Below, piece after piece: positions 1-49,460 of a DNA stretch of 64,000 nt (its first letter is position 1; every line of letters starts with the position of its first letter). The notes beneath the pieces are model-generated. The model had not been told where the DNA came from, made no database searches, and was given only the letters and a program-made list of their open reading frames with translations. The stretch is from Sulfurospirillum sp. Lineage in GTDB: Bacteria > Campylobacterota > Campylobacteria > Campylobacterales > Arcobacteraceae. The translations under genes were made by a program, and so were the position numbers. The stretch spans positions 124,001-188,000 of the forward strand of contig JAKZMJ010000001.1 in assembly GCA_030491005.1 (NCBI GenBank), read 5' to 3'.

Positions 1-805
1 TCTTGGATTTACAGTTATCTATAACTCGAGTAAAATTATAAACTTCTCTCAAGGGGAGTTTGTAATGATAGGTGGAATGGCAGCAGTATTTTTGTCATAC
101 TTAAAATTTCCATTTATTTTAGCATTTCCGATGGCAGTAATGTTAGCTTCTTTATTAGGTTATGTACTCTTTAAATTAGTTTCGATGTCAAGTAATTCAT
201 CAGTAACTTCTTTAATTATTTTAACTTTAGGATATTCTATCTTTATAAGAGGTGCAGCACAAGTTGGATTTGATAAACAAATGCACACATTGCCAAGTTT
301 TATAAGTGATACACCTATTTCTATTTTTGGTGCAACAATAACACCTCAAGCAGTATTAGTAATTGTTGTTTCACTTTGTATTGTTTTTGCATTATATTAT
401 ATGTTTAACAAAACAAAAATAGGCAAAGCAATGCTAGCAACTGCTGATAATCAAGATGCAGCTAAATTAGTAGGAATATCAGTTAAAAAAATATTAATTA
501 TGAATTTTATGATAGCAGCTGCAATTGCAGCAATAGGAGGAATAGTATTAACACCAATAATATCTATGAATTATGAAATTGGTGTTATGCTTGGTTTAAA
601 AGGATTTTGTGCCGCAATTATTGGGGGTATTGGTAATCCATTTGGTGCAGTATTTGGAGGAGTGGTACTTGGTATCTTAGAATCTTTTGTTGCTGGTTAT
701 GTAAGTAGCGAATATAAAGATGCTGTTGCATTTGTAGTATTATTATTAATTTTATTCTTTTTTCCAGGTGGTATGTTTGGTGCAAAGAAATCTTCAAGAG
801 TATAG
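1..805 (+). CDS. livH: Branched-chain amino acid-type ABC transporter permease LivH (5' end outside window)
   Basis: Inner-membrane permease of a LivHMGF-type importer. The open frame is already running at base 2 and continues to TAG at 803-805, so the first ATG seen (65) is internal: upstream codons encode the family motif NFSQGEFVMIGGM. About 267 codons are present of a usual 290-300. Several hydrophobic helices are visible, as is the EAA-like loop around GLKGFCAAIIGGIGNPFGA. It is followed after 8 bases by livM. In aromatic degraders such importers often carry aromatic acids rather than leucine. Given paa-type genes downstream, that is my inference here; no substrate-binding protein gene is in view. 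Confidence 0.9.
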   Translation, partial: LGFTVIYNSSKIINFSQGEFVMIGGMAAVFLSYLKFPFILAFPMAVMLASLLGYVLFKLVSMSSNSSVTSLIILTLGYSIFIRGAAQVGFDKQMHTLPSFISDTPISIFGATITPQAVLVIVVSLCIVFALYYMFNKTKIGKAMLATADNQDAAKLVGISVKKILIMNFMIAAAIAAIGGIVLTPIISMNYEIGVMLGLKGFCAAIIGGIGNPFGAVFGGVVLGILESFVAGYVSSEYKDAVAFVVLLLILFFFPGGMFGAKKSSRV

Positions 806-813
806 GTTGATAT

Positions 814-1779
814 ATGGAAAATAAAGGTATATTTTTAGATAGAGGTATTGTAGCAACGATTGTAATCTTGACTGTGATACCATTTTTATTACAAAATAGT
901 TTTCATTATGAAATAGCAATTATGTGTATGTTAAATGCAGTTATCTGTATTGGGCTTAATATGCTAGTTGGCTATACTGGGCAAATTTCATTAGGTCATG
1001 GAGCTTTTGCTGGTCTTGGTGCTTATGTAGCAGTGATTTTATCAACTACATTTGAATTTGACCCAGTTTTAAGTATTTTAATTGCAACTGTTGTATTAGC
1101 AACAATTGCGTATTTCATATCTAAACCAATTTTAAAACTAGAAGGTCATTACCTTGCGATGGGAACATTAGCAGTTGGTATTATTATCTCAATTGTATTA
1201 AATAATGAAGATCAATTAACAGGTGGACCTGATGGTATGGGTATTGGAAAATTTCATATTTTAGGATATGTATTTGAAAATGATATTCAATGGTATATTT
1301 TATCAGCAATGATTTTAGTATTTTCAATTTGGGCATTACAAAATGTAATTAACTCTCCATTTGGAAGAATTTTAAGATGTATTAGAGATTCTGAAACTGC
1401 TGCAAAAGCAATTGGTGCTGATGTTGCGTATTATAAAACATATGTATTTGTAATCTCAGTTGTCATTGCTACAGTTGCAGGAAGTCTTTACTCATACTAT
1501 ACAGGTTATATCTCACCAGAAGAATCAGGATTTATGAGAAGTATTGAGCTTATTGTTATGATTGTATTTGGGGGACTTGGTAGAATTTATGGAGCTGTAA
1601 TCGGAGCTATTGTTATTACTGCACTTCCTCAATTTCTTACATTCTTACATGATTATGAACATATGGTATTTGGAGCGATTATTATTTTTGTAATGATTTT
1701 TATGCCAAAAGGAATTGTTTCAATTTTTGATGGACTTAAGAAAAAAAAGAAAAAAGAGATTGTAAAGGATAATTCATGA
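814..1779 (+). CDS. livM: Branched-chain amino acid-type ABC transporter permease LivM
   Basis: Second inner-membrane permease of the importer, 321 residues, the normal size. It is strongly hydrophobic with about 9-10 predicted helices and carries the family motifs GLNMLVGYTGQISLGHGAF and, near the C-terminus, FGGLGRIYGAVIGA. The end is a lysine-rich cytoplasmic tail (KKKKKKE). Its stop overlaps the livG start by 4 bases, indicating translational coupling within the livHMGF operon. The substrate is not shown by the sequence; an aromatic acid is plausible from context. Confidence 0.92.
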   Translation: MENKGIFLDRGIVATIVILTVIPFLLQNSFHYEIAIMCMLNAVICIGLNMLVGYTGQISLGHGAFAGLGAYVAVILSTTFEFDPVLSILIATVVLATIAYFISKPILKLEGHYLAMGTLAVGIIISIVLNNEDQLTGGPDGMGIGKFHILGYVFENDIQWYILSAMILVFSIWALQNVINSPFGRILRCIRDSETAAKAIGADVAYYKTYVFVISVVIATVAGSLYSYYTGYISPEESGFMRSIELIVMIVFGGLGRIYGAVIGAIVITALPQFLTFLHDYEHMVFGAIIIFVMIFMPKGIVSIFDGLKKKKKKEIVKDNS

Positions 1780-2546
1780 GTTTATTAAAAATTGATGGAA
1801 TTAGTAAAAGCTTTGGTGGATTAAAAGCTGTTGATAATATCTCTTTTGAAGTAGAAGAAGGAACCATTCATGCGTTAATTGGTCCAAATGGAGCTGGTAA
1901 AACAACTTTAGTAAATATGATTTCAGGAATTTACTCAGTAGATAAAGGTGATATCTATTTTGCAGATGAAAAGATTACAGATGTACCAACACATAAACTT
2001 GTAAATAAACATATAATGAGAACATTTCAAAATCTTGAAATTTGTAAAAATATGACAGTAATGGAAAATGTTCTTTTAGGCTTCAATATCAATATGAATA
2101 AATCACTTTTAAAATGCTCTTTTAGATTTGAATCAATTATGGATGATGAAGAAAAATTTAGACATATAGCACTTTCACATCTTAAAAGAGTTGGTTTAGA
2201 AAAATATGCTGAAATTTTATGTTCAGAGTTATCTTATGGTATTTTAAAAAAAGTTGAAATTGTACGAGCTTTAGCAATTAATCCAAAACTTTTACTTTTA
2301 GATGAACCAGTTGCTGGTCTTAATGGAACTGAAACAGCAGAAATAGCTGAAATTATTAAAGAAATAGCAGCCCAAGGGGTTACTGTACTTTTAATAGAAC
2401 ATGATATGAAAATGATTATGAATATCTCAGATTACATTACGGTTGTAAACTTTGGAGTTAAATTAGCAGAAGGAACTCCTAGTGAAATTTCTACAAATCC
2501 TGTTGTTATCCATGCATATTTAGGGGGAGGAACATTACATGAATAA
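1776..2546 (+). CDS. livG: ABC transporter ATP-binding protein LivG
   Basis: One of two ATPases powering the LivHM permease, 256 residues. Walker A GPNGAGKTT lies at residues 36-44, the Walker B LLLLDEP at about 172-178, followed by the switch histidine in LLIEHDM. The signature is LSYG (about 152-155) instead of LSGG, which is usual for LivG proteins. The C-terminal LivG tail (TNPVVIHAYLGG) is present. It overlaps both livM (4 bases) and livF (8 bases). Confidence 0.92.
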   Translation: MSLLKIDGISKSFGGLKAVDNISFEVEEGTIHALIGPNGAGKTTLVNMISGIYSVDKGDIYFADEKITDVPTHKLVNKHIMRTFQNLEICKNMTVMENVLLGFNINMNKSLLKCSFRFESIMDDEEKFRHIALSHLKRVGLEKYAEILCSELSYGILKKVEIVRALAINPKLLLLDEPVAGLNGTETAEIAEIIKEIAAQGVTVLLIEHDMKMIMNISDYITVVNFGVKLAEGTPSEISTNPVVIHAYLGGGTLHE

Positions 2547-3264
2547 AGAAAATTTAGTATTAGAGATTAAAAATCTTGATTGTCACTATGGAAATATTCA
2601 TGTACTACAAGATATTAATATTAATGTAAAAAAAGGTGAAATAGTTGCTTTAATTGGGGCTAATGGTGCAGGTAAAACTACATTAATGCGAACAATTTCT
2701 GGACTTAAAGAACAAAACAAAGGTGAAATAATATTTAAAGAAAATATTAATATCACCAAGACAGCCCCTGAAAAAAGAGTAAAACTAGGAATTGCACAAG
2801 TTCCAGAAGGAAGAGAACTTTTTAAATCTCTTACAGTTGAAGATAATCTTATGCTAGGAGCATATACAAGAAATGACAAAGCTGAAATAGCAAAAGATTT
2901 ACGATTTGTATATGATAAATTCCCAATTTTAGAAGAAAAAAAAGATTTAATATCTGGAAACTTATCAGGTGGACAGCAACAAATGCTAGCAATCGGACGA
3001 GCTTTAATGAGTAAACCTGCTTTACTTTTAATGGATGAACCCTCAATGGGATTAGCTCCTGTAATTGTTGAAGAGATATTTGCTTTTATTGAAGAGCTTA
3101 AAAAACTTCATATGACAGTATTTTTAGTTGAACAAAATTCTTACTTTGCATTAACGATTTCAGATCGAGCGTATGTATTAGAAAATGGAGAAATTGTTTT
3201 AAGTGGTAATTCGAGTGATTTAGTAAAAGATCCTCGAGTTAAAGAAGCATATTTAGGAATGTAA
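2539..3264 (+). CDS. livF: ABC transporter ATP-binding protein LivF
   Basis: Second ATPase of the importer, 241 residues. Walker A GANGAGKTT is at residues 40-48, the signature LSGGQQQ at 142-148 and Walker B LLLMDEP at 162-168; the LivF motif VPEGRELF is at about 88-95. The C-terminal DPRVKEAYLGM is typical of LivF. The stop directly abuts the ATG of the enoyl-CoA hydratase gene (no intervening base), so importer and CoA-thioester metabolism are made from one message. Confidence 0.92.
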   Translation: MNKENLVLEIKNLDCHYGNIHVLQDININVKKGEIVALIGANGAGKTTLMRTISGLKEQNKGEIIFKENINITKTAPEKRVKLGIAQVPEGRELFKSLTVEDNLMLGAYTRNDKAEIAKDLRFVYDKFPILEEKKDLISGNLSGGQQQMLAIGRALMSKPALLLMDEPSMGLAPVIVEEIFAFIEELKKLHMTVFLVEQNSYFALTISDRAYVLENGEIVLSGNSSDLVKDPRVKEAYLGM

Positions 3265-4044
3265 ATGGATAATAAATATATTATAGTTGAAAAATTAGAA
3301 AATGGTGTTGGTGTTATTACACTTAATCGTCCTGAAGTATACAATGCTTTATGTACTGCACTTTTAGATGAAGTTTCAAAAGCTATTAATGACTTTGATT
3401 CTGATGAGTTAATTGGTGCTGTTGTTTTAACTGGTGGAAATAAAGTATTTGCAGCAGGTGCTGATATTAAAGAGTTAGCCAAACTTGATTTTGCAAGCGC
3501 ATACACAAGCGAATTTGTAAAAAAAGAATGGCTAACTTTAGAAAAACATACCAAACCAATTATAGCAGCAGTTGCTGGATTTGCACTAGGAGGGGGCTGT
3601 GAAATGTCTTTATTATGTGATATTACAATTTGTGACACCACTGCAAAATTTGGACAACCTGAAATAAAAATAGGAACAATGCCAGGAGCTGGTGGAACAC
3701 AAAGACTCACACGCGCAATTGGAAAATCAAAATCTATGCATTTATGTTTAACTGGTGATATGATTGATGCAAATGAAGCTAAATCTTTTGGTTTAGTTTC
3801 TTTCGTATATGAAGAAGGTACAGTAATAGATGAAGCTATAAAAATAGCTTCTAAAATTGCTTCAATGTCACAGCCTGTTGTGAGGCTTATTAAAGAATCA
3901 ATAAATAACGCTTACGAATCATCACTTCAAGCAGGACTAGAAAGTGAAAGAAAGTCTTTTTATACTACTTTAGCATTAGAAGATAGAATTGAAGGGGTGA
4001 ATGCTTTTGTAGAAAAAAGAAAAGCAAGCTTTTTAAATAAATAA
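3265..4044 (+). CDS. paaF: Enoyl-CoA hydratase, PaaF-like
   Basis: Cytoplasmic crotonase-fold enzyme, 259 residues, hydrating a 2,3-enoyl-CoA. Both glutamates needed for hydratase activity are visible: E113 in GGGCE and E133 in GQPE. The oxyanion-hole segment AAGADIKEL is at about 63-71, and TMPGAGGTQRL and the C-terminal EGVNAFVEKRKASF are typical. In the phenylacetate pathway PaaF hydrates 2,3-dehydroadipyl-CoA. That role is inferred from paaG, paaH and paaX nearby; a general short-chain hydratase cannot be excluded. It is the last gene of the liv operon and is followed by a terminator-like hairpin. Confidence 0.75.
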   Translation: MDNKYIIVEKLENGVGVITLNRPEVYNALCTALLDEVSKAINDFDSDELIGAVVLTGGNKVFAAGADIKELAKLDFASAYTSEFVKKEWLTLEKHTKPIIAAVAGFALGGGCEMSLLCDITICDTTAKFGQPEIKIGTMPGAGGTQRLTRAIGKSKSMHLCLTGDMIDANEAKSFGLVSFVYEEGTVIDEAIKIASKIASMSQPVVRLIKESINNAYESSLQAGLESERKSFYTTLALEDRIEGVNAFVEKRKASFLNK

Positions 4045-4249: not shown

Positions 4250-4318
4250 TATCTATATACTTTAAGGAGTAATTAAAATTTGTATGATACAATTTATTTG
4301 AATTTATATAAAAAAGTG

Positions 4319-4374: not shown

Positions 4375-5403
4375 ATGGCAGTGAACAAAGAAAAATTAGC
4401 TGGAAAAATGGAATTTCCACCAGCAACTCCTCAACCAAATGTATATCCATTATCTTGGGTAAATAATACTACAAAATTACAAGAAATATGGGAAGCATCT
4501 CAAAGAGAATATTGGGATCCTGAAAAATTACCATGGGATACTTTTGATGTAAATAAATATACTTGGGAACAAAGAGAGTCAATTGCTTATTGGTGGACAC
4601 TACTTTCAGTATTTGATGCCTCTGCTCCTCCTGTTTTTGCAGCTTCATTAATTAAAACATATGAGGTACATGAAGAAGATGTTGTAAGAAGATGTTTTTT
4701 TTCTGTTACAAGAGATGAACAAAATCATGAGCAAATGTGTGGAATAGTAATTACTAAAATGTTAGATCATTCAGATCCTTTAACATATACACCAAAAACT
4801 GAACTTGGTAAAAAACTACAAAAAAATGCAAAATGGCTATACTATAATGGTGGTAGATATTGGGATGGATTTAAAAATGCAGTTCCTAACTATTCTTTAG
4901 CAGTATTATTCTCATCATTTCTTATGGGAGAAATGGCAGCGGCTACTATTTTTCATCAATTAGCAAAAGGCTGTGATGAGCTAGTATTTAAAGAAGGTTT
5001 CTCAAAAATTGGTAAAGATGAAGGTCGACATATGGCTATTATTCTTACTTTAATGGAAAGAGATTATCCTACATTATCTGAAGAAGATAAAGAAACTATT
5101 ACGAAACAGATTAGAGCTGGTTATTTATTCCTATCTGCTGTGTTATATGAGCCACCTGCTGATTTCTGGGATTTACCTGATGATTTTGTTACTACTCAAA
5201 GAGAAAGTGAAGTGCATGCAAGAGAAGCTGGTTTTGCTATTCCACAATTAGATGTAAAAAAAGAAAACTGGACAAAAGCAATGCTTAATGTTAAAGCTGT
5301 GCTTGATAATTATAGTATTCCTTTCCCAGCTATTCCAGAATGTGGAATTTCAGGTAAAGAAGTTACTGATGTTGATTTAGACGATATTATCCCAGTATTT
5401 TAG
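4375..5403 (+). CDS. R2-like (ferritin-fold) diiron oxygenase of unknown substrate
   Basis: 342-residue soluble protein that looks like a carboxylate-bridged diiron enzyme. Two DExxH sets are visible, D114-E115-x-x-H118 and D215-E216-x-x-H219, with E186 between them and D81 upstream in VFDASAPP. The order and spacing resemble the ribonucleotide reductase R2 ligand set (D84, E115, H118, E204, E238, H241 in E. coli). It is not PaaA and not BoxB as I know those sequences, and lacks the partner subunits of multicomponent monooxygenases. A good ribosome site (AAGGA) precedes the ATG. The next gene encodes a matching reductase, so a two-component oxygenase is inferred. Its substrate is unknown; an aromatic amide or amine is suggested by the amidase and paa genes. 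Confidence 0.7.
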   Translation: MAVNKEKLAGKMEFPPATPQPNVYPLSWVNNTTKLQEIWEASQREYWDPEKLPWDTFDVNKYTWEQRESIAYWWTLLSVFDASAPPVFAASLIKTYEVHEEDVVRRCFFSVTRDEQNHEQMCGIVITKMLDHSDPLTYTPKTELGKKLQKNAKWLYYNGGRYWDGFKNAVPNYSLAVLFSSFLMGEMAAATIFHQLAKGCDELVFKEGFSKIGKDEGRHMAIILTLMERDYPTLSEEDKETITKQIRAGYLFLSAVLYEPPADFWDLPDDFVTTQRESEVHAREAGFAIPQLDVKKENWTKAMLNVKAVLDNYSIPFPAIPECGISGKEVTDVDLDDIIPVF

Positions 5404-5444
5404 TCAAAAATAAATAAATAAAAATATATAATCAGGAATTTGAT

Positions 5445-6461
5445 ATGAAGAAAATTATTATGCAACCATCAGGAAAAGAAATAGATTGTCCAGCAGGAGA
5501 AACTGTTCTTTTTGTTTTAGAAAAGCAAGGGTATGCTTTACCCAACAATTGTAGAGCAGGAGCCTGTGGTGAGTGTAAAATAAAAGTTTTAAGTGGTAAA
5601 TTTGATCAAGGTTTTATTATGGACATGGCTTTATCTCAAGAAGATAGGAAAAAAGGTTATGGACTTATGTGTATGGCGAAACCAGTTTCTGATGTTTTAG
5701 AAATTGAGTTTGGGACAGAAGATGCACAACCTAAATTATTCCCACCTGTTGAAGATTCTTGGCATATAGTAACTGATAAAATTCATAGAACAGATAAAAT
5801 TCTGGATCTTAAACTATCTCCATTAGGAAAGCCGATTAAATTTTGGCCTGGTCAATACGCTATGATTGGTGATGATGATTCAAATCATCCATTGCGTCCT
5901 TATTCTATAGCTAATGCTCCTAAAGGTAATGGAGAATTGTCTTTTATTATTACACACGAAGAAGGTGGTAAAACAAGCCCTTGGATTCATAATGAGGTAA
6001 ATGTTGGTGATCATATCAAAATCAATGCTCCTTATGGTACTTTTTTAGGTGATCCTAATGTTGATACTCCGATCCTTTGTCTAGCTTCAGGTTCTGGATT
6101 GGCTCCGATTTTATCACTTCTTAATGCTTATTTAAGTAGAGGTCATAAAAATCCTGTAACATTATTATTTTCAGCTAAAACACACAATGATTTACTTCAT
6201 TTTGGTGAAATCAAATATTTAGAATCTAAATATATAAATTTTAAGTATAAATATACTCTTACACAAGAGAGTAATAAAAGTGGTGCATTAGAAGGTCGAA
6301 TAGATAAGGTATTACCAAATTTATTCTCAGATTTAAGTAATCACTCAATATATATTGCAGGAGGTATCCTTTTTGTTAAATCATGTAAACAAATAGTAAA
6401 CTCCTTAGGTGCAAAAGAAGAGTTACTTCATATGGAAGAATACTTCGCTCAGCAAATTTAG
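5445..6461 (+). CDS. NAD(P)H:acceptor reductase with 2Fe-2S and FAD domains (oxygenase reductase)
   Basis: 338-residue electron-transfer flavoprotein like the reductases of bacterial oxygenases. The N-terminal plant-type 2Fe-2S domain has C36, C41, C44 and C75. An FAD-binding barrel follows with RPYSIAN at 150-156, then a nucleotide-binding domain with ASGSGLAP at about 213-220. The C-terminus HMEEYF matches the family. It begins 41 bases after the diiron gene with an AGGA ribosome site. It probably passes electrons from NAD(P)H to the diiron protein. Confidence 0.85.
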   Translation: MKKIIMQPSGKEIDCPAGETVLFVLEKQGYALPNNCRAGACGECKIKVLSGKFDQGFIMDMALSQEDRKKGYGLMCMAKPVSDVLEIEFGTEDAQPKLFPPVEDSWHIVTDKIHRTDKILDLKLSPLGKPIKFWPGQYAMIGDDDSNHPLRPYSIANAPKGNGELSFIITHEEGGKTSPWIHNEVNVGDHIKINAPYGTFLGDPNVDTPILCLASGSGLAPILSLLNAYLSRGHKNPVTLLFSAKTHNDLLHFGEIKYLESKYINFKYKYTLTQESNKSGALEGRIDKVLPNLFSDLSNHSIYIAGGILFVKSCKQIVNSLGAKEELLHMEEYFAQQI

Positions 6462-6541
6462 ATTATTCATAAGTAAAGTTTGATTTATTTAAATTGAACC
6501 CTTATACTGTATTAATATTAGACAAATCAAGGATAAGTTAA

Positions 6542-7942
6542 ATGAAAGTCAATACAAATGAAAAAGTAATATCCATCAATCCACAAGAGAATGAAATTAA
6601 CAATACATCAGGATTAATAATTACGCATAGAGATTTAGTAAAAACTAATATTTTATCTATCTATGATAGTATAAATTCAGAACAAAATATATCTTTAAAT
6701 TTATTTACGTCTAATCCAGAAAAATTTAAAGAACAGGTACTAAAGTCAATAGATAAAATTGATTTATATACAGATTTATTTGGGCTAGCTATTGTTGTAA
6801 AAGATAATATTAATACACATGATTTTCCAACAACTGCGGGTACTATAGCATTAAAAAACTTTTTTCCTAAAGAAGATGCTCCTATTATAAAAAAGCTAAG
6901 AGATGCAGGAGCTATTATTGTAGGGAAAACAAACATGCATGAACTTGCATTTGGTGTTACTTCTAATAATTCTTGCTTTGGTGCAGTAAAAAATCCACTA
7001 AACCCACTTTATTTTGCGGGAGGAAGTAGTGGTGGAACTGCAGCTGCTATAAAAGCAGGTATTGTTAATATTGGTTTGGGTACAGATACTGGTGGGTCTT
7101 GTAGAATTCCAGCTGCCTTATGTGGAGTTTTTGGCTTTCGACCAACATCTGGTTTGTATAGTTCTAAAGGTGTTGTACCATTATCAAGTACACGAGACAC
7201 TCCTGGTTTATTAGCAAATTCAATTGAAAGTATTATACTATTAGATGATGTAATTACTTCTAAAAAGAATACAGAAACAATAGATTTAAAAACAATAAGA
7301 ATTGGTGTTCCTCGAGAATATTTTTATGATAACCTATCTGAGGGAGTAAAAAAAATAAGTGATGAAACTATAAATAAATTAAAAAAGAATGGAATCAAAC
7401 TTATTGAAGTAAATATTGATGGAATTCCAAATTTATTAACACAAAGCATTAATATGGTTTTACATGAAGCGTATGTTTCTCTAAACAAATATTTAAAAAT
7501 ATATAGTGAAAAGATTACCTATAATGAAGTTGTGCAAGAAATCTCTTCTCCTGATGTAAAAGGTTTATTTGAATCTGGTGCAATATCAGAAAATCCAAAT
7601 TATACCTTGGCTCTTGAAGAAAGAAAAAAAATACAAGAAGCGTATAAAAATTATTTTTCTAAGAACAATTTAGATGTTATTTTATACCCTACAACACCAA
7701 TAGAAGCTATGCCTATTATCGATAGTTATGAAACTATTACTTTAAATGGAAAACAAGAACCAACATTTCCAACTTATATAAGAAATATGAATCCAGGAAG
7801 TTATGCTGGTATACCAGGTATAAGTATTCCTGCTGGAATTACAAAAGAAGGTCTTCCTGTTGGCATGCATTTAGAAGGAGCTTATCAAAAAGATAAAGCA
7901 CTCCTGCAAATAGCATTAGCTATTAATAAATTAATTTATTAA
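6542..7942 (+). CDS. Amidase signature family hydrolase
   Basis: 466-residue Ser-cisSer-Lys amidase. The triad is visible as K87 (VVKDN), S162 in GGSSGG and S186 in TDTGGSCRIP. Family members hydrolyse amides of aryl-acetic acids (indoleacetamide, mandelamide, phenylacetamide) or act in tRNA amidation. This one stands apart from any gatB/C genes and sits in a catabolic operon, so hydrolysis of a small amide is likely. An AAGGA ribosome site lies 8 bases before the ATG. The 80-base gap after the reductase gene could hold its own promoter. The exact substrate is not deducible. Confidence 0.8.
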   Translation: MKVNTNEKVISINPQENEINNTSGLIITHRDLVKTNILSIYDSINSEQNISLNLFTSNPEKFKEQVLKSIDKIDLYTDLFGLAIVVKDNINTHDFPTTAGTIALKNFFPKEDAPIIKKLRDAGAIIVGKTNMHELAFGVTSNNSCFGAVKNPLNPLYFAGGSSGGTAAAIKAGIVNIGLGTDTGGSCRIPAALCGVFGFRPTSGLYSSKGVVPLSSTRDTPGLLANSIESIILLDDVITSKKNTETIDLKTIRIGVPREYFYDNLSEGVKKISDETINKLKKNGIKLIEVNIDGIPNLLTQSINMVLHEAYVSLNKYLKIYSEKITYNEVVQEISSPDVKGLFESGAISENPNYTLALEERKKIQEAYKNYFSKNNLDVILYPTTPIEAMPIIDSYETITLNGKQEPTFPTYIRNMNPGSYAGIPGISIPAGITKEGLPVGMHLEGAYQKDKALLQIALAINKLIY

Positions 7943-8077: not shown

Positions 8078-9007
8078 TTACTTAATCCCTGAAAATCTAT
8101 TAAAATAAAATTTATCTAATTTTGGTGTATTTCCACCAACAGTCAATAAATTATGTTCTACAAAGTCATTGGCTTTATGATGGATATCGGCATAAATTGA
8201 TTCTACTAATGAAGAAGAAGCTTTACCCAACCAATCTGTAGATAACATATCATCTCCTAATTTTGGGTCAAATAATAATGCTCGTCTATATTCATGAATT
8301 AATAAGATTCTTAATACAAAACATTGTTTTTGTGTAAATTGTGATATTGATGTATTTAGACTAAATACTTTTCTAAATTTAATAATAAATTCTTGATATC
8401 TATCTTCTATATCTTTTAAATCCCAATATTCATATGCCATCTCTTTTACTATTTCTTTTGTCATAGGCATTTGTAAGGGTCCTTTTATTAAAAGAACTTC
8501 ATTTTGTAATGTGTGTTTTATTAGTATATCCTGAATGTAATCCATTTTGTAATTAGGATGTAAATAAAGATACTTTGAAGGGTTTGCAAATCCTTCTTTT
8601 TTCAGTATTTTTGATAATTCTGTTTCTTTTATTTGGTTTACTGCATTTGTGAGTAACACTATCCAATCTTGATTATTTTCTTGTTCATCATAGGCATATA
8701 CACTATAATGTGCTTTTATAAATCTATCAATAGCAACATCACTTAAAGAATAGTAACTTTCACGTCCAAGTTTCTTAGAACTCAACCATCCATCTTTTGT
8801 AAGTCTAAATATTGATGTTCGTGTTAATTTTTCACTTATTCCAAATTCTTCCATAAATTTTATAAGAGAACCTAGCCATATAGTTCCTCCATATGGAAAA
8901 ACAGTATCTCCAAAAAAAGTTATTATTAATGATTTTGCTTTTGGAGATATCTCTTCTAAAAGTGACTCTAAGTATTCATCTACTTCATTTTCTTCTTTTT
9001 TTTCCAA
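8078..9007 (-). CDS. paaX: PaaX-family transcriptional repressor
   Basis: 309-residue regulator. The N-terminal part (SLIITFFGDTVFPYGGTIWLG, about residues 27-47) is the PaaX signature preceding a winged helix with RTSIFRLTKDGWL; the C-terminal PaaX domain includes FVLRILLIHEYRR. PaaX proteins repress phenylacetate genes and are released by phenylacetyl-CoA. The gene is last in paaG-paaH-paaX, 105 bases after paaH, so it is probably autoregulated with them, and it converges on the amidase gene. Its ligand here could be phenylacetyl-CoA or another aryl-CoA. Confidence 0.85.
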   Translation of the reverse strand: MEKKEENEVDEYLESLLEEISPKAKSLIITFFGDTVFPYGGTIWLGSLIKFMEEFGISEKLTRTSIFRLTKDGWLSSKKLGRESYYSLSDVAIDRFIKAHYSVYAYDEQENNQDWIVLLTNAVNQIKETELSKILKKEGFANPSKYLYLHPNYKMDYIQDILIKHTLQNEVLLIKGPLQMPMTKEIVKEMAYEYWDLKDIEDRYQEFIIKFRKVFSLNTSISQFTQKQCFVLRILLIHEYRRALLFDPKLGDDMLSTDWLGKASSSLVESIYADIHHKANDFVEHNLLTVGGNTPKLDKFYFNRFSGIK

Positions 9008-9112: not shown

Positions 9113-10636
9113 CTAGTTAAACCTATCAATAATATTTTTTTCCAATAATCCTCTATCAGCTCTATATCTTGTATCTTTATAAAATACTTCTAAATTATCT
9201 AAAATTGTAATAATAGAACCTACTCCTAGTTTATTTAGCCATTTAAATGGTCCTATTGGATAATTTACTCCATTTTCCATAGCTATATCTACACTATTTT
9301 CATCACATACGCTGTTTGTTACAGTTGAACTTGCTTCATTTACTAGCATTGCTATTGTTCTAGCTGTAATTAAAGCAGGAGAATCTTTTACTTCTAATGT
9401 CTTTTTCCCAATTTTTTCAAACAATGCTGCTACATTTTCTGACACATGTTCTTGGGCTAAAAGTGATGTTGCTATTGTAATAGATGATGTTAATTCATAA
9501 TCTATATTTATATCAAATTGTACAATATTCTTTTCATGTAATTCTTGTGATATTTCACTTGCCATTTTTCCATTTGTTAAAAATAGTTTTATATCATTAA
9601 ATTCAATATATCCTGAACCATCATTTTGTATTACTTTTACACCTGCTTTTTTAAATAAAGGTATAAGTTCATCTGCAACACCCAATGATCCATATACATA
9701 AATTACAGATATTTTATGATTTGATGCTTTTACTACATTTGTATCATCTCGTCCTAATTGATCTCGTTCTTCATAAGTATAAAATCCTTTTCCAGATTTT
9801 CTACCTAAGAGACCTGCTTGATAAAACTCTTGTTGTGTTAATGATGGTTTAAATCGTGGGTCTTGATAATATGAATCAAATGTTGATTGTGTAACAGAAT
9901 AATTTGTATCATTTCCTATTAAATCCATTAATTCAAATGGACCCATTCTAAACTTACCACTTGTTCGTATACTTTCATCAATAGTAGCAAAGTTGCTTAC
10001 TCCTTCTTCATAAATTCGCAAAGCTTCTGCATAAAATGGTCGAGCTATTCTATTTACTATAAATCCAGGTGATGATTTTACATATACTGCTTTTTTACCC
10101 CAAGAAGAGATAAGATTATATACATCATCTATAATTTTTCTATCACTTTGTAATCCATAAATGATTTCTACAAGTTTCATAATTGGTGCTGGATTAAAAA
10201 AATGTATTCCTATTATATTTTCTGGTTTTTTAAGACCATTAGCTAAAGCTGAAATAGAAATAGATGATGTATTTGATGCAATTACTACATTTTCACATAT
10301 ATCTTCTAGTTGTTTAAAAATATCTTGTTTTATCTCTTTGTTTTCAATAATAGCTTCAATAATTAAATCACAAGGTGCTAAATCATTTATTTGCATTGTT
10401 GGTTTCATTAAAGAGATAGTTTTATCTTTATTTTCTTGTGTTATTTTTCCTTTTTCTACAAGTCGTGACAACTCTTTTTCATTTATTTTCATAGCATTAC
10501 CAACAGCACCATCCCAATTATCATATAGTATAACTTGATGCCCTGCTTTAGCTGCAACTTGGGCAATTCCCCTTCCCATAATACCAGCTCCTACAATACC
10601 AACTATTGAATTTGAATCAATCTTAAGAGATGCCAT
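9113..10636 (-). CDS. paaH: 3-hydroxyacyl-CoA dehydrogenase PaaH
   Basis: 507-residue NAD-dependent dehydrogenase; in the phenylacetate pathway PaaH oxidises 3-hydroxyadipyl-CoA. The Rossmann motif GAGIMGRG is at residues 16-23. The motif HFFNPAPIMKLVEI and the segment GFIVNRIARPFYAEALR match E. coli PaaH closely, as does the duplicated C-terminal domain (NEASSTV...GVNYPIGPFKW). It is slightly longer than E. coli PaaH (475). It starts one base after the paaG stop. Confidence 0.88.
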   Translation of the reverse strand: MASLKIDSNSIVGIVGAGIMGRGIAQVAAKAGHQVILYDNWDGAVGNAMKINEKELSRLVEKGKITQENKDKTISLMKPTMQINDLAPCDLIIEAIIENKEIKQDIFKQLEDICENVVIASNTSSISISALANGLKKPENIIGIHFFNPAPIMKLVEIIYGLQSDRKIIDDVYNLISSWGKKAVYVKSSPGFIVNRIARPFYAEALRIYEEGVSNFATIDESIRTSGKFRMGPFELMDLIGNDTNYSVTQSTFDSYYQDPRFKPSLTQQEFYQAGLLGRKSGKGFYTYEERDQLGRDDTNVVKASNHKISVIYVYGSLGVADELIPLFKKAGVKVIQNDGSGYIEFNDIKLFLTNGKMASEISQELHEKNIVQFDINIDYELTSSITIATSLLAQEHVSENVAALFEKIGKKTLEVKDSPALITARTIAMLVNEASSTVTNSVCDENSVDIAMENGVNYPIGPFKWLNKLGVGSIITILDNLEVFYKDTRYRADRGLLEKNIIDRFN

Positions 10637-10637
10637 A

Positions 10638-11432
10638 TTAGTTTCCTTGAAAATTTGGTGTTCTTTTAGCTAAAAATGCTGATACACCTTCTTTATAATC
10701 ATTTGATTGTCCTGCTGTTCTTTGCAGATTTTTTTCTAATTCTAATTGTTCATTTAGTGTATTGTCATTTGATTCATTTAAAGCTTTTTTAATTAAACTT
10801 AATCCATAAGTTGGTGCTTTTGAGAAATGTATTGCTAATTTTTGTACTTCTTCATCTATTGTATTTATTGGATATACTCTTGAAATCATTCCATATTCTA
10901 AAGCAGTTTGAGCAGGAAGTTTATCACCTAGCATAGATAATTCCTTTGCTCGTGCCATACCTACTAATTTTGGTAAAAAGTAAGAGTTTCCAGAATCAAG
11001 AACAAGTCCTATTTTACAAAATGCTTGGATAAAGGATACTTTTTCATGTGCTATTATAAAATCACACGCTAAAGCAATACCAACACCAGCACCAGCAGCT
11101 ACTCCATTTACTTTACAAATCACAGGTATCTCTAAATTATAAATTGATTTAATCAATGGATTGTATTTCTTTTCAATTGATTCACCTAAATCAAGCTTTT
11201 TATCATCACTGTTATTTACTGATCTATCATTTAAATCTTGCCCAGCACAAAATGCTCTTCCTTCTCCTGTTATAATTAATACTCGTAATGTTTTATCTTT
11301 TTTAATAGTAATCATTACAGTTTTTAATTCTTTATGCATAACTTCATTGAGAGAATTAAACACTTCTGGTCTATTTAATGTTAATGTTGCTATACCTTCT
11401 TTTACATCATATTTTATTGTCTCATATTTCAC
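10638..11432 (-). CDS. paaG: Ring-1,2-epoxyphenylacetyl-CoA isomerase PaaG
   Basis: 264-residue crotonase-fold isomerase that turns the epoxide of phenylacetyl-CoA into the oxepin. It matches E. coli PaaG along its length: FCAGQDLNDR at 61-70, NGVAAGAG at 109-116, D146 at the position of the essential PaaG aspartate (AFCKIGLVLDSG), and the C-terminal EGVSAFLAKRTPNF. Hydratase-type glutamates are missing, as expected for PaaG. The start is GTG, with AAGGA 5-6 bases upstream. First gene of the paaGHX operon; the epoxidase genes that make its substrate are not in the window. Confidence 0.88.
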   Translation of the reverse strand: MKYETIKYDVKEGIATLTLNRPEVFNSLNEVMHKELKTVMITIKKDKTLRVLIITGEGRAFCAGQDLNDRSVNNSDDKKLDLGESIEKKYNPLIKSIYNLEIPVICKVNGVAAGAGVGIALACDFIIAHEKVSFIQAFCKIGLVLDSGNSYFLPKLVGMARAKELSMLGDKLPAQTALEYGMISRVYPINTIDEEVQKLAIHFSKAPTYGLSLIKKALNESNDNTLNEQLELEKNLQRTAGQSNDYKEGVSAFLAKRTPNFQGN

Positions 11433-11772: not shown

Positions 11773-12221
11773 CTTAACTTTCGCACCTAAAACAATCAAT
11801 AAAACATCAAATAACAAGCATATTATCAATACTTAATCCAAGATTTTCATGTCTATTGACAATATTATTTTAAGTGTAAATAATTAAAATAATATTCTAA
11901 AAATAAACTATAAAATAGTATCAAAGAAGCTTTTATACAGTGCTTATTAGCTATAATATGGATATTAAAAAAGAGGTTTATTGATGAATATTCAGGAGAA
12001 AATAACTAATATTATAAATGACAAGCTAAAAAATCCAATTTTCAAGACAATGCAAGTACTAAATATAAAAACAATTTTATCTCAAAGTAAATTCACTAAG
12101 AAAGATGGTGTTAGTGTTTATATGGTAGTTATTCATTTTGTCTATATGTTAGTTATGAATAAAAAGATATCAACATTTTCAAATCAAAGTGATGATAGTT
12201 TAAAGAAAGATGTTTACTATA
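11773..12221 (+). mobile_element. IS4-like element, left-end remnant (copy 1)
   Basis: Starts with the terminal inverted repeat CTTAACTTTCGCACC, also at 13703 and 50726 and inverted at 15232. About 450 bases are nearly identical to the longer copy at 50726, including the leader and the first 80 codons of the transposase. Identity stops after TGTTTACTATA at 12221, so the rest has been lost. Confidence 0.8.
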
Positions 12222-12322
12222 TTTTACATCTAAATAAAGTAAAATCTATTAAAAATCAACTACTTGAAAATAGATGGGATTTAGATACTACTTTGTCGCT
12301 TTTATTAGGAATTAGTTTTTAG
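11981..12322 (+). pseudogene. Truncated IS4-like transposase fused to a foreign tail
   Basis: The first 80 residues are the N-terminus of the transposase seen in full context at 50934. From about base 12222 the frame continues into 33 unrelated codons and stops. The tail (ending LLENRWDLDTTLSLLLGISF) looks like the last helix-turn-helix (Fis/HTH_8 type) of NtrC-class regulators, where an LGIS motif is usual. That would make it the stump of a regulator destroyed by the insertion. This is a resemblance by eye only. The catalytic residues of the transposase are missing. Confidence 0.65.
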
Positions 12323-12507
12323 TGGATTAAACTACACAAACAAATAACCCATAGAATTTTTAAGCCTCAAGAAGCTAAACTGTAGTAGTTGTAAACAAAA
12401 ATCATCGAACATTTTGAGGGTCATTGTTCCTCAAGTCGATCGTTATATTAAAATTTTATGTATGCAAAATGTTGCTTAACTAAGAGTTAGTCTACGAAAG
12501 GATAAAA

Positions 12508-13634
12508 ATGACAAGAAGAAGTTTTATACATTCAACAGCAATGTTATTTGGAGGTATTTTAATGTGGCGTACTTCAACTAGTGCCACTAATAAAATAGAT
12601 TTATATCAAATATATCCATCAATCATGAAAGAAGAGAATGAAGAACATAAAAAAACTTGGATGTCTTTTGTAGCAAATGATTATATTTGGGAAGCAAAAC
12701 AAATACCAGAAGTAAAAAGAAATTTAGCTCTCTTAGCCAAAACAATTGCCAAATATGAACCTGTATCAATATTGGTTCATGCAGATGATAAAGATGAGGC
12801 AATATCACTTTTAGACGGACTAAATACCCATAACTTTCCAATAGTACTAATAGAATTTAGTATTATGATTTATGGCTTAGAGATACTGCACCAACTTTTG
12901 TAACAAATGAACTTGGAAAAAAAGCAGGAATAAATTTTAATTTTAATGGTTGGGGAGAAAAGCAAGAACATACAGAGGACAGTAAAGTAGCAGATTTTAT
13001 TATAGAAAAATCTGGAGTAAAAAGAATTAATTCCAATTTAGTCTTAGAGGGTGGAAGTTTTGAGATAGATGGTGAGGGAACAGCTATTTTAACTGAAAGT
13101 TCAGTATTGAATGACAATCGTAATCCTAGTTTTACTAAAGAAACATTTGAAAAAGAGTTAAAATTACTTTTAGGGATTAAAAAGATTATTTGGTTAAAAG
13201 GAATTAAGGGCAATGATATTACTGATGCTCATGTTGATTTTTATGCTAGATTTACTAAAATTGGAACTGTATTGGTGAGTCGTGAAAACTATACCAAAAG
13301 TTATGACTATGCTATTACAAGAGAAAATATAGAGATTTTACAAAACTCCACAGATGCAAAGGGTAATCCTTTAGAAGTGATAATTATAGACAATCCAGAA
13401 ACATTTAATAAATCGTTTGGAGATAAAGATTTTGCTGCTGGTTATATTGGATATTATGTTTGTAACGATGCCGTTATTATGCAGAAATTTGGAGATACAC
13501 AAGCAGATCAAAATGCTTTTAATATAATTCAAAATCAATTTCCAAATAGAACAATAGAACAAATTGCAACAGATGGTATAGCTTCAGGTGGTGGAAGCAT
13601 ACATTGTAGTACACAACAAGAGCCAAAAGACTAG
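12508..13634 (+). pseudogene. Agmatine deiminase-like protein with Tat-type signal, frameshifted
   Basis: Together two frames encode a peptidyl-arginine/agmatine deiminase (guanidino-group hydrolase). Frame 1 (12508-12903) starts with a twin-arginine-like leader (TRRSFIHSTAMLFGG). Frame 3 resumes with LWLRDTAPTFV from about 12868 and runs to TAG at 13632-13634. It keeps the family blocks LEGGSFEIDGEG, DAHVDFYARF (catalytic His) and SIHCSTQQEP (catalytic Cys). A single missing base near 12855-12868 explains the break. An AAGGA ribosome site precedes the ATG. IS remnants flank both sides, so it is probably a decaying gene, though a sequencing error would give the same picture. Confidence 0.8.
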
Positions 13635-13702
13635 CAAATCATCATTATAATAAACCATAGCAAATTAGCTATCATAAATAACAGAGTAAGTTAATATAAC
13701 AT

Positions 13703-13759
13703 CTTAACTTTCGCACCTAAAACAATCAATAAAATATCAAATAACAAGCATATTATCAA
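13703..13759 (+). mobile_element. IS4-like element, left end (copy 2), interrupted by an IS5-type element
   Basis: Begins with CTTAACTTTCGCACC and matches the first 57 bases of the other IS4-like copies, then is cut at 13760 by the IS5-type element. Its right end reappears at 15105-15232; the body of the transposase in between is missing. Confidence 0.75.
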
Positions 13760-15104
13760 GGGAACCTCTAAAAATAAATTCTAAAAATAAGATATCTATA
13801 CTTTTTTAAAATTTAATTTACAATAAGCTAAATCACTAAAAATTATAAAAAATATATCCATATATTTACAATTATAAACTATAAAATAGCTATAAATTCA
13901 ATTGTTTTATATCTATTTTAACTTTTCATTATTGGTATCTTTTTTAATCTAACTAACTGTTCATATCTTAGAAAGTTATATGTTAGATTTATAAGTCCTG
14001 TAATAGATTTAATTCTATCTAATCCAATTGCTTTTAAATTTAGAGCAGAGTTCATAGATGTTTTGAAAGTTCCAAATATATGTTCAACTCTTACTCTTGT
14101 TTTTGAGTATTTATAATTTTCTTTATCTTGTTTATTTGTAAGTGGTGTATTTCTATATGCTCTTTGTATAACTTTACTTTTTACATTAGTATCTTTTAGG
14201 TATGTTTCTATTTTATTAGATTTATATGCAGAATCTGCATATAAAATATTATCATTTTTATCTATTAAATCTTTTATAGCTTGAGAGTCATGAGTTGATG
14301 ATGGTGTTACTGTATAGTTTATAATTACTTTAGTCTTTTGATCTACTGAAATATGATCTTTATATCCAAACTCTCTAGTTTTATATTTTGTTACCCATCT
14401 TGCATTACAATCTTTTTGAGATAAGATATTTTTATTCTTAGCAAATTCTAAAGGAATGGCACCTTTTTTAATATCTGCATTATCACTTCTTTTATTTCTT
14501 TGTTTTGGTACTCTTATAAATGAAGCATCAACAAGTGTACCTTCTTTAGCTACTACACCACTAGTTGTTAAATTTTTTGTAAATATATCAAATAACTTTT
14601 TAGATAAATCTTTCTCTTTCAAGCTTTCTTTAAATAAGCATATAGTCTTTTCATCAGGTACATTATCACCTATTTGAAGTCCTAAAAAGTCTAAAAATGA
14701 CAATCTATCTTTTATTTGAAATTCTGTTTGTTCATCTGATAAGTTATAATATCTTTGAAGAATTATTATTTTAAAGATTAATAGTTTATCATATGGTTTT
14801 CTACCAGCATTACTTTTTCTATCATACTTTATTAAAGCTTCTTCAATAGGTTGTCGAAATAGTTCCCAGTCAATAATTTTATTTAACTTTTGTAAAGGTG
14901 GTTGATGCTTTTTAATCTTATCTAGTTGAAATTCATAGTCAAATAATCCAGCCATAATATACTCTCTTTTTATAGTAATTTATACTGATATTATAGCTAA
15001 TTAATGATTTCAGAAACCTTAAATATAAGATTTTAAATTATTTAATTTAGATCTTATTGTTAAGTCTTAAGTAGTGATTTTATTGTCTATTTTTAGAGAT
15101 ACCC
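13760..15104 (-). mobile_element. IS5-family insertion sequence (copy A)
   Basis: 1,345-base element with imperfect terminal inverted repeats GGGAACCTCTAAAAATA (left) and TATTTTTAGAGATACCC (right), enclosing one intact transposase gene. The flanks (TCAA left, TATA right) show no target duplication. With the surrounding IS4 deletion, this suggests rearrangement after insertion. It differs in sequence from copies B, C and D, which are near-identical to one another, so A is an older or separate arrival. Confidence 0.85.
13918..14955 (-). CDS. IS5-family transposase (copy A)
   Basis: 345-residue DDE transposase, full length. Family blocks are visible: the N-terminal MAGLFDYEFQLDKIKKHQPP, the first catalytic Asp in EGTLVDASFI, the second in LYADSAYKS, and the C-terminal KTRVRVEHIFGTF with the catalytic Glu. 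It is clearly homologous to copy B at 25630 but with many substitutions. There is no frameshift, so it may still be active. Confidence 0.92.
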   Translation of the reverse strand: MAGLFDYEFQLDKIKKHQPPLQKLNKIIDWELFRQPIEEALIKYDRKSNAGRKPYDKLLIFKIIILQRYYNLSDEQTEFQIKDRLSFLDFLGLQIGDNVPDEKTICLFKESLKEKDLSKKLFDIFTKNLTTSGVVAKEGTLVDASFIRVPKQRNKRSDNADIKKGAIPLEFAKNKNILSQKDCNARWVTKYKTREFGYKDHISVDQKTKVIINYTVTPSSTHDSQAIKDLIDKNDNILYADSAYKSNKIETYLKDTNVKSKVIQRAYRNTPLTNKQDKENYKYSKTRVRVEHIFGTFKTSMNSALNLKAIGLDRIKSITGLINLTYNFLRYEQLVRLKKIPIMKS

Positions 15105-16843: not shown

Positions 16844-17632
16844 TTATACAAATTTCATATTTAAAGAACCTAAATCTTGAAAAGCAACACTTACATTATC
16901 ACCTTTTTTTACACTAACAGCAGCTGTAATTGCCCCTGATAATATAAATGTACCAGCTTTTAGTACTTCTCCTCTTGTTGCTAGCATATTTGCTAACATA
17001 GCAATAGAAGTTGCAGGATTACCTAAAACAGCAGCAGCTGCTCCTAGTTGTACTATTTCACCATTTATTCTCATAACAACACCTAAGGTTTTTAAATCTA
17101 CATCTTGTATTTTTTTCATTCTTCCACCACTTACATATCGTGAAGATGAAGAATTATCAGCAATTACAGATTTTAAATCAAATTTAAAATCTTTATATCT
17201 TGAATCTATTATCTCAACAGCAGGAAGTATAAAATCAGTAGCTGATAAAACATCTCCAATATGACAACCAGGACCTTTTAAATCATGCTTTAATACAAAA
17301 GCTATTTCTGCTTCAACTTTAGGATGTATTAATTCATCTATTTTGATATTCGCCCCATCTTCTATGCTAAAATAATCAGCTAAATACCCATAACAAGGAT
17401 TATCAACACCCATTTGTTTCATCTTAGCTTGTGAAGTAAGACCCATTTTCATACCTACTATTTTTGTACCTCTTGCTTCCTTATTGGCTCTTGCTTTCCA
17501 TTGAATATCATAAGCATCTTCATATGTCATATCTGGATAATCATCAGTAATTTTAGTGATTTCATAAGCATTTATTTCAGCATCTTCACAATACTTTGCT
17601 AATTTTTCTATTGTTTTTTTATCTAATGCCAT
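16844..17632 (-). CDS. dmpH: 4-oxalocrotonate (2-oxo-3-hexenedioate) decarboxylase
   Basis: 262-residue FAA-hydrolase-fold enzyme, Mg-dependent, which decarboxylates 2-oxo-3-hexenedioate to 2-hydroxypenta-2,4-dienoate in the meta-cleavage pathway. Features include KMGLTSQAKMKQMGV, HPKVEAEIAFVLKHDLKGPG (metal ligands) and the C-terminal GDNVSVAFQDLGSL. It is paralogous to dmpE at 19608; I assign H and E from typical order (E-F-G-H) and KMGLTSQ versus KIGVTSK motifs. It shares one base with dmpG. Confidence 0.83.
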   Translation of the reverse strand: MALDKKTIEKLAKYCEDAEINAYEITKITDDYPDMTYEDAYDIQWKARANKEARGTKIVGMKMGLTSQAKMKQMGVDNPCYGYLADYFSIEDGANIKIDELIHPKVEAEIAFVLKHDLKGPGCHIGDVLSATDFILPAVEIIDSRYKDFKFDLKSVIADNSSSSRYVSGGRMKKIQDVDLKTLGVVMRINGEIVQLGAAAAVLGNPATSIAMLANMLATRGEVLKAGTFILSGAITAAVSVKKGDNVSVAFQDLGSLNMKFV

Positions 17633-18660
17633 TATATTAGTCCTCTTTTTTTTGCCATATCTAAAGCTAAATCTTCTATCATATCTTCTTGTCCACCAAC
17701 AGTTTTTCGACGTCCTAATTCTTCTAAAATAGTTCTTGTATCAATGCCATATTTAAGCTCAGCTCTTCTTGCAAAAAGTAAAAATGATGAATAAACACCT
17801 GCATAACCTAAAGTTAAAGAATCTCTTGAAATTCTTGTAGGTTTTCCCATAATAGGAAGTGCAATATCTTCTGCTACATCTTCGATTTTATTTAAATTAA
17901 TCCCTGTTTGTACACCCATTCTATTTAAAACAGCTACTAAAACTTCTAAAGGAGTATTTCCTGCACCTGCTCCAAATCCTGCTAAAGATGCATCTATTCG
18001 TGTAGCTCCTGCCTCAATAGCTGATAAAGAGTTTGCAACTCCCATTGCCATATTATGATGTCCATGAAAACCTAGTTCAATATCATTTCCAAATTCTTTT
18101 TTTAAAGCATTAATTCTTAAACTTACCATATCAGGCAACATATAACCAGCTGAATCAGTTATGTAAATACAATTTGCACCATAAGAAACCATCTTTTTAG
18201 CTTCTTGTACAAGTCTTTTTTCATCTGCCATATGTGCCATCATCAAAAAACCAACTGTATCTAAACCCATTTCTTTAGCTTTATTTATGTGTTGAGCTGA
18301 ACAATCAGCTTCTGTACAATGAGTAGCAACTCTAACTGTTGTAATACCATGCTCTTTAGCACTTATCAAGTCTTCAACTATTCCAATACCAGGAAGTAGT
18401 AAAGCTGATATTTTTGCTTGTTTCATATTTGGTACAACGGCATCTAACCATTCTTCATTACTATGTAAACCAAAACCATAATTAAGTGAACTTCCACCTA
18501 AACCATCTCCATGTGTAACTTCAATCATAGGTACACCAGCTTCATCCATTGCTACTGACATTTCTTTCATTTGCTCACAAGTGAATTGATGTCCAATTGA
18601 GTGCATACCATCTCTTAATGACATATCATGAATAGTAACTTTTTTACCTTTTAAATCCAT
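17632..18660 (-). CDS. dmpG: 4-hydroxy-2-oxovalerate aldolase
   Basis: 342-residue HMGL-like TIM barrel that cleaves 4-hydroxy-2-oxovalerate to pyruvate and acetaldehyde. The start [16 protein letters not shown] carries the catalytic Arg-Asp, and [11 protein letters not shown] holds the metal-binding histidines. DmpG channels acetaldehyde to DmpF, encoded just upstream on the same strand (2-base gap). The length is normal for the family (about 340-345). Confidence 0.93.
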
Positions 18661-18662
18661 AA

Positions 18663-19559
18663 TTATGCTCCTTTATTCTGTTGATTAATTAATTTTTCAG
18701 CCATTTGTTCTGCTATATTTGTAGCAGCTGCTGTAATGATGTCAAGATTACCTGCATATTTAGGTAAATAATCTCCTAAGCCTTCAACTTCTAGCCAAAT
18801 TGATATTTTATTTCCATCAAAAACTGGACCATTTTTAAGTGTATATCCTGGTACAAATTTTTGTACTTCTTTTATCATTTCATTTACAGATTTTATGATA
18901 GCTTCTTTATTTGGTTCATCAGAAGTTAAACAATGAATAGTATCTCTCATCATCAAAGGGGGCTCTGCAGGATTTAGAATAATAATTGCTTTCCCTTTTT
19001 TTGCCCCACCAATTTGCTCAATTCCAAGTTTTGTAGTTTGAGTAAACTCATCAATATTAGCTCTCGTTCCAGGACCTGCTGACTTTGAAGCAGCTGTTGC
19101 AATAATTTCTGCATATTTCACTTCTTGCACAGATGATACAGCTGCAATCATAGGAATAGTAGCTTGTCCACCACAAGTAACCATATTTACATTTTGAACA
19201 TCATTTTTAAGTAATTCTTTCATATTAACAGAAGGTACACAAAAAGGACCAATGGCAGCAGGTGTTAAGTCAATCACCATTACACCTAACTTCTTTAATT
19301 TTCTATTATTCTCACCATGAACATATGCAGATGTAGCATCAAAAGCTATAAGTATCTCATCTTTTTTTATATGTTCTAATAGTCCATCAACACCTTTAGA
19401 AGTAGTTTTCATACCATCTTTTGCAGCTCTTATTAATCCATCAGATTGGGGGTCTATTCCTACCATCCATAAAGGATTTAAAATCTTGCTTCTTTTAAGT
19501 TTATACATCAAATCTGTTCCAATATTTCCAGACCCAATTAATGCACAATTAATTTTCAT
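18663..19559 (-). CDS. dmpF: Acetaldehyde dehydrogenase (acylating)
   Basis: 298-residue NAD- and CoA-dependent enzyme converting acetaldehyde to acetyl-CoA. The N-terminal nucleotide loop is GSGNIGTDL (9-17); the catalytic cysteine is in [11 protein letters not shown] (about residue 133). The length is slightly under the usual 305-315. It is encoded next to dmpG, matching the known DmpFG complex with its internal aldehyde channel. Confidence 0.93.
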
Positions 19560-19607
19560 ATTTCTTCCTTAAAAATAGTCCCTATTTGGAAAGAACCTTT
19601 TATTGTT

Positions 19608-20402: not shown

Positions 20403-20416
20403 AAATCAATCCAACC

Positions 20417-21877: not shown

Positions 21878-21897
21878 TATGTTTTCCTAATTAATAC

Positions 21898-22323: not shown

Positions 22324-22332
22324 TTTAAAATC

Positions 22333-36583: not shown

Positions 36584-36758
36584 TAGATAGCCTCTGATTG
36601 TTTGATTGTTTATCAATATTATTTTATCTAAAATTAGTTGTAAAGTTTATTTGTAAGTATAAGTAATGCAAAGTATTGTCTTGTTTTTAAAGCTAAAGAT
36701 ATAAGACACTAAGTTTAAAAAGATTTATTAAATCAGCATTTTTTTACTTATTTTTAGC

Positions 36759-49390: not shown

Positions 49391-49460
49391 GTGGAGCATC
49401 ATTAAAATATTTTTATTCCAATAGATACAATATAAAGATAAAAAAAGAGGATATTACATT

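Follow-up and report, generated by a model that had tools for sequence, protein, structure and literature searches.

Genes at the locus and their paa neighbours

The window, by which we mean the whole stretch of 64,000 nucleotides analysed (C1:124001-188000 of a 2.69 Mb assembly, 97% complete), carries in its first part a set of genes typical of aerobic phenylacetate degradation. The genes of a Liv-type ABC transporter (LivH, M, G, F; 65..3264, plus strand), which were recognised by profile matches and are kept with the pair described below in many loci, are followed on the same strand by a PaaF-like enoyl-CoA hydratase (3265..4044; 288 bits with the PaaF model PRK09674, 346 bits with PRK05862). 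Next come three open reading frames in one direction, just as the original prediction had placed them: a diiron protein of 342 aa (4375..5403, plus strand), a reductase of 338 aa (5445..6461, plus strand), and an IaaH-like amidase of 466 aa (6542..7942, plus strand; PF01425, 326 bits). The assignment of the first of them is based on invariant ligands, an AF2 model, the paa context and the absence of PaaA.

On the minus strand lie the PaaX regulator (8078..9007; PF07848 and PF08223 above cut-off, TIGR02277 243 bits with a cut-off of 265), the 3-hydroxyacyl-CoA dehydrogenase PaaH (9113..10636; PRK08268 565 bits, above cut-off, and TIGR02279 555 bits, below it), and PaaG, the phenylacetyl-CoA epoxide isomerase (10638..11432; TIGR02280 337 bits, cut-off 345). 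These profile matches confirm the paa neighbourhood that had been proposed. On the same contig, PaaK, PaaJ, PaaI, PaaF, and PaaN precede the first position of the window by about 2.5 to 9 kb. The diiron-reductase pair is thus encoded with PaaK, PaaG, PaaH, PaaJ, PaaN/PaaZ, and PaaX, a complete paa context which places it among the components of the aerobic phenylacetate (paa) pathway.

None of the PaaABCDE subunits was found in the paa cluster of the host, and PaaA had no match anywhere in its genome at E 0.001. In the known pathways PaaABCE forms the epoxide and PaaG isomerises it (PMC4498308). Because PaaABCE normally supplies the epoxide for PaaG, the host cluster has one step missing and one oxygenase without a role.

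Upstream of the diiron gene we detected a conserved stretch, TATGATACAATT (4275..4300, plus strand), in an alignment of seven loci; its part TGATACAATT is invariant in all seven aligned Campylobacterota loci. A search for a PaaX operator found TATGATACAATT without clear repeats ahead of other paa genes. The stretch looks promoter-like and is at most a candidate PaaX site.

The amidase has the indoleacetamide hydrolase model as its best match (498 bits vs cut-off 532). A trio of diiron protein, reductase, and amidase had been expected, but a survey of genomes did not recover it: in 79 of 80 related loci the gene directly after that of the diiron protein is the reductase, and the remaining locus is truncated by the end of its contig, whereas the amidase occurs in none of the 80. 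In the nearest relatives its place is taken by PaaX, directly next to the pair, or by a membrane transporter gene. Judged from this gene content, the amidase is a strain-specific addition outside the conserved core, and it may feed phenylacetate from phenylacetamide in this strain alone.

Fold, ligands and relatives of the diiron protein

The six residues read originally as an R2-like ligand set (D81, E115, H118, E186, E216, H219) are invariant in the alignment of all 41 homologues with 71-85% identity. The same six are also invariant in a subfamily at 47-50% identity, and conservation across both sets is, on these alignments, far beyond chance. In the AF2 model (mean pLDDT 84) D81, E115/H118, E186, and E216/H219 are placed on four helices. 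Comparison of this model with known structures gave the R2/R2lox fold, with Z 19.6 over 262 residues and rmsd 3.4, and the top Foldseek ranks were occupied by class Ie R2 and human R2 proteins. This confirms the R2-like diiron protein that had been read from the sequence.

Can the protein be assigned to any family? Its Pfam scores were 19.7 bits for rubrerythrin, 17.0 for R2, and 15.3 for AurF, all below the cut-offs. The NCBIfam profile scan gave no model with a weighty match, and a PDB profile search with the profile of the 41 homologues gave no significant solved relative. From these searches, the diiron protein belongs to no named family, in agreement with the earlier failure to match it to one; a close match to the R2, AurF or PaaA families was also missing at the HMM level.

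The protein has the fold and the D-E-H-E-E-H ligand order of the ribonucleotide reductase R2 protein, and R2 and R2lox structures align with it at Z 18-19.6 over about 250-270 residues. In contrast, identity to them is 7-18%, and neither has such a dedicated reductase or paa context. Membership in the R2 family was rejected on the profile score (17 bits vs the PF00268 gathering cut-off of 33.6) and on Cys122, which replaces the radical tyrosine at position H118+4 and is invariant in 41 of 41 homologues. Some R2 subclasses likewise do without the radical tyrosine. R2lox is characterised by glutamate as the first ligand (E69 according to PDB titles) and by a Val/Tyr ether cross-link. The first ligand here is Asp81, not Glu, with Ser83 at +2 in all 41 homologues, and R2lox was rejected too. 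AurF shows a weak profile similarity (38/41 homologues at E <= 0.01, the best 5.5e-6), but the window protein itself reaches 15.3 bits vs the PF11583 gathering cut-off of 29.6, and the gene context of AurF is other.

The PaaABCE system would share with our pair the proposed reaction, and it has the same neighbours (PaaG, PaaN/PaaZ, PaaK, PaaX), a diiron site, and a 2Fe-2S/FAD reductase. However, the pair is without PaaB or PaaC. The diiron protein is not PaaA: hmmscan gave no TIGR02156 match, and the hhalign probability against the PaaA alignment was 0.3%. The reductase (Pfam Fer2, FAD_binding_6, NAD_binding_1) begins with the 2Fe-2S domain, followed by the FAD and NAD domains. This is an order like that of BenC/MmoC and unlike PaaE, in which the ferredoxin domain is C-terminal (PMC4498308). 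The cluster cysteines are C36, C41, C44, and C76 by alignment; the first three had been named correctly, while the fourth had been put at C75. With no partner subunits in the clusters and the domain order of the reductase reversed, the pair was rejected as a PaaABCE complex.

BoxAB resembles the pair in having one catalytic chain with a separate reductase, and in the aryl-CoA ester (here a proposed substrate) and the CoA-bound ring-opening route. The BoxB ligands are E120, E150, H153, D211, E240, and H243 (PMC5489048), an E-E-H-D-E-H order vs the invariant D-E-H-E-E-H found here, on which the identification with BoxB was rejected. BoxA carries two [4Fe-4S] clusters, and phenylacetyl-CoA is not a BoxB substrate (PMC4498308). 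BoxB was not among the matches listed in the fold comparison, which R2 and R2lox fill.

The C-terminal tail of the diiron protein, IIP(V/I)F, is nearly invariant yet modelled with low confidence, and this combination suggests a docking or lid peptide.

Occurrence with and without PaaA

How often does the diiron protein occur without PaaA in other genomes? Of 94 diiron-bearing genomes, 57 had PaaA above cut-off, 34 had no match, and three had a match below cut-off, one of these a fragment; Azospirillum soli and A. isscasi gave PaaA matches of only 68-69 bits. The PaaA-free share is about one third of the genomes tested, which is not an unbiased estimate, as the carriers were gathered by similarity to the window protein. 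In a random sample of Pseudomonadota there were just two non-centre diiron carriers, both positive for PaaN and for PaaA, so the fraction rests mainly on the similarity-picked set. Two other genomes of the random sample (G170, G370) had a weak PaaN match of about 600 bits, without PaaA and without the diiron protein; these matches may represent paralogues or yet another variant.

The PaaA-free carriers span Campylobacterota and alpha-, beta-, and gammaproteobacteria, including Sedimenticola, Chromatiales, Magnetospirillum, Telmatospirillum, and Comamonadaceae. Many assemblies in the carrier set are drafts; the PaaA-free G506 is a complete genome (100% complete, one contig), and G719, also PaaA-free, has 2.71 Mb in one contig. 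On the tree of the diiron protein the presence or absence of PaaA switches at least 11 times, eight of the switches being forced by well-supported branches. Such repeated changes indicate that the absence of PaaA is not an oddity of one lineage.

Other genes of the pathway are kept in most of these genomes. PaaG was found at E <= 1e-70 in 33 of 36 PaaA-free genomes (29 above the PaaG cut-off), and the three without it are all draft assemblies. PaaK was present in 19 of the 20 PaaA-free genomes tested, in 10 of the 20 above the curated cut-off and in Campylobacterota just below it. Of the first 50 genomes with the diiron gene, 48 had PaaN or PaaZ above the cut-off. In a set of 249 Campylobacterota genomes only two have the diiron protein, and these two are also the only ones with PaaN, a coincidence with chance odds of about 1 in 31,000 if kinship is ignored.

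At the level of gene clusters, PaaN-G-H-I-J-K with PaaX and the pair, and with no PaaABCDE, was seen in L107, L115, L138, and L139. A similar cluster in L114 has the pair and no PaaABCDE, and PaaH was not found in it; L007 and L012 carry PaaZ versions. These PaaABCDE-free clusters are spread over several classes. A search for paaBCDE in the paa clusters of L099 with the window, L107, and L138 found none. In 28 of the 80 diiron loci there was no specific paa gene within about 10 kb.

A more distant branch is represented on plasmids of Variovorax. One of them encodes a diiron homologue of 49% identity, within the 47-50% subfamily, with a reductase of its own. Its cluster also includes a PaaK-like ligase, a thiolase, a PaaG-like hydratase, and PaaN (625 bits against a cut-off of 579). 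The same cluster further encodes an indolepyruvate oxidoreductase, a Liv transporter, and a MaoC protein that matches PaaZ in its ring-hydrolase part. On a second plasmid the gene order is the same, with no PaaN annotated between thiolase and ligase; in a third, PaaN is present again. The pair is the sole oxygenase candidate seen in the Variovorax cluster, and this gene content supports a general role as arylacetyl-CoA epoxidase. The homologue from Nonomuraea (L121) has no recognisable paa neighbours.

Proposed function and alternative readings

If the PaaABCDE-free clusters work as phenylacetate pathways, then we can ask: Which protein forms the epoxide? From the pathway gap, the gene context, and the fold we infer which metal the pair binds, how electrons flow in it, and which reaction it carries out on which substrate. 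In our estimate, with a probability of about three in four, it is a stand-alone two-component epoxidase of phenylacetyl-CoA, or more broadly of arylacetyl-CoA, built on an R2-like scaffold as a non-orthologous replacement for PaaABCE. Electrons of NADH or NADPH would pass to the FAD of the reductase, then to its [2Fe-2S] cluster and on to the two irons. In its diferrous state the site would activate O2 and place one oxygen atom across the aromatic ring of the CoA ester. The epoxide would be converted by PaaG to the oxepin, whose ring the oxepin hydrolase and the PaaN (or PaaZ) aldehyde dehydrogenase would open and oxidise. The closing beta-oxidation would fall to PaaJ, F, G, and H. The original suggestion of a probably undescribed step of aryl-CoA degradation in a paa-type locus is supported in this form.

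One point against an epoxidase is that over half of the carriers (57/94) also have PaaA above cut-off. In those genomes the pair would duplicate PaaABCE or else serve as an isozyme with a different substrate or oxygen range, and it may have a second role there, at low oxygen or on another ester. Further points against it are the 28 of 80 loci with no specific paa gene nearby, the three PaaA-free draft genomes in which PaaG is missing, and the presence of PaaA in both carriers of the random Pseudomonadota sample.

The coexistence of both systems would also be accounted for if the pair epoxidised a substituted arylacetyl-CoA (hydroxyphenylacetyl-CoA, indoleacetyl-CoA or similar) as its real substrate and used the same lower pathway. 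In line with this, the Variovorax cluster has a ligase, a hydrolase, PaaN, a PaaG-like protein, and an indolepyruvate oxidoreductase of its own. We nevertheless consider it unlikely, as the PaaA-free genomes have an ordinary PaaK, an ordinary PaaG (mostly above cut-off), and the PaaX regulator.

An upstream oxygenase, giving phenylacetate or phenylacetyl-CoA from phenylalanine, phenylethylamine or phenylacetamide, would suit the adjoining Liv-type transporter and the amidase of this strain. This seems improbable: the PaaA-free genomes would be left without a ring epoxidase despite having PaaG and PaaN/PaaZ, and the amidase is not conserved. For the latter reason the route from an aromatic amide or amine proposed at first is unsupported, and the pair fits a ring-epoxidising step better than an upstream step on an amide.

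An accessory diiron protein (an oxygen or peroxide scavenger, an epoxide deoxygenase, or a radical generator like that of ribonucleotide reductase) agrees with the R2 fold and the weak rubrerythrin and R2 profile scores, but is very improbable given the dedicated reductase in 79/80 loci, the invariant cysteine at the place of the radical tyrosine, and the lack of any epoxidase that would follow in PaaA-free genomes.

Returning to the arylacetyl-CoA epoxidase, we can place it in a wider frame. BoxB and PaaAC are the only characterised aryl-CoA epoxidases named in PMC5489048, and the two are structural homologues (PMC4498308). For the wider proposal we see the odds as even: a third, evolutionarily separate route of aryl-CoA ring epoxidation, formed by a superfamily of arylacetyl-CoA epoxidases on the R2 scaffold with at least two substrate branches (phenylacetyl, and that of Variovorax/Nonomuraea) and repeatedly swapped with PaaABCE. 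It is perhaps suited to low oxygen, since many of the carriers come from microaerophilic and denitrifying groups. If a third aryl-CoA epoxidase on an R2-like scaffold is true, the epoxidation of aryl-CoA rings has more than one origin, and a two-protein system simpler to study than PaaABCE would be at hand.

We found no description of this enzyme in the open PubMed Central papers covered by a full-text search. The GapMind work on phenylacetate fills only the gaps of the oxepin hydrolase and PaaH (PMC9007349). A 2026 pathway survey takes PaaA and PaaC as genome markers, and its passages on configurations without PaaABCDE name no replacement (PMC13186573). With these markers, genomes with the proposed replacement, Campylobacterota included, would be missed.

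Parallel diiron cluster and the C-terminal tail

On a Variovorax paradoxus plasmid (locus L120, 2761-12047), a homologue 49% identical to the window's diiron protein lies with its reductase, and the further genes of the cluster code PaaN, a PaaG-like hydratase, a MaoC hydrolase, a PaaK-like ligase, a thiolase and an indolepyruvate oxidoreductase. The cluster is also present in two other Variovorax plasmid loci, L122 and L123, and it probably represents an undescribed route of arylacetyl-CoA degradation.

The C-terminal tail of the diiron protein, IIP(V/I)F (window 5386-5400), is nearly invariant and has low confidence in the predicted structure. It may serve in reductase docking or as a cover of the active site.

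Neighbors of the phenylacetate genes

The paa cluster lies near a catechol meta-cleavage block (window 16844-23277, minus strand). Here, catechol 2,3-dioxygenase, 2-hydroxymuconic semialdehyde dehydrogenase, DmpE, DmpH and 4-hydroxy-2-oxovalerate aldolase were identified, all five above NCBIfam cut-offs.

Around both the paa genes and the catechol block, the ORF list shows several transposase-like genes (window 11981-14955, 25630-26667 and 48908-51761). Among them, a pair of closely similar 345-residue ORFs, at 13918-14955 (minus) and 25630-26667 (plus), flanks the catechol genes on both sides, an arrangement which, judged from this list alone, resembles a composite element.

A conserved 195-residue protein is located close to PaaK in the Campylobacterota paa cluster (L002, 13524-14111, and relatives; in the own genome, L099, 7212-7808). 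The L002 protein matches no Pfam family.

CRISPR and restriction-modification genes

The paaK gene group directly adjoins a type II-B-like CRISPR system of the same genome (L099, 188-7210), which lies upstream of the window at a distance of 9 to 16 kb. The system includes Cas1 and Cas4, and at least 22 repeats make up the array. The Csx12/Cas9-like protein scored 81 bits, below the cut-off of 399, and with 994 residues is small for its type.

Within the window, the minus-strand gene at 33746-36616 codes an Eco57I/MmeI-like protein of 956 residues. Its N-terminus is HSDR_N-like, and the protein is probably a restriction-modification enzyme of type IIG.
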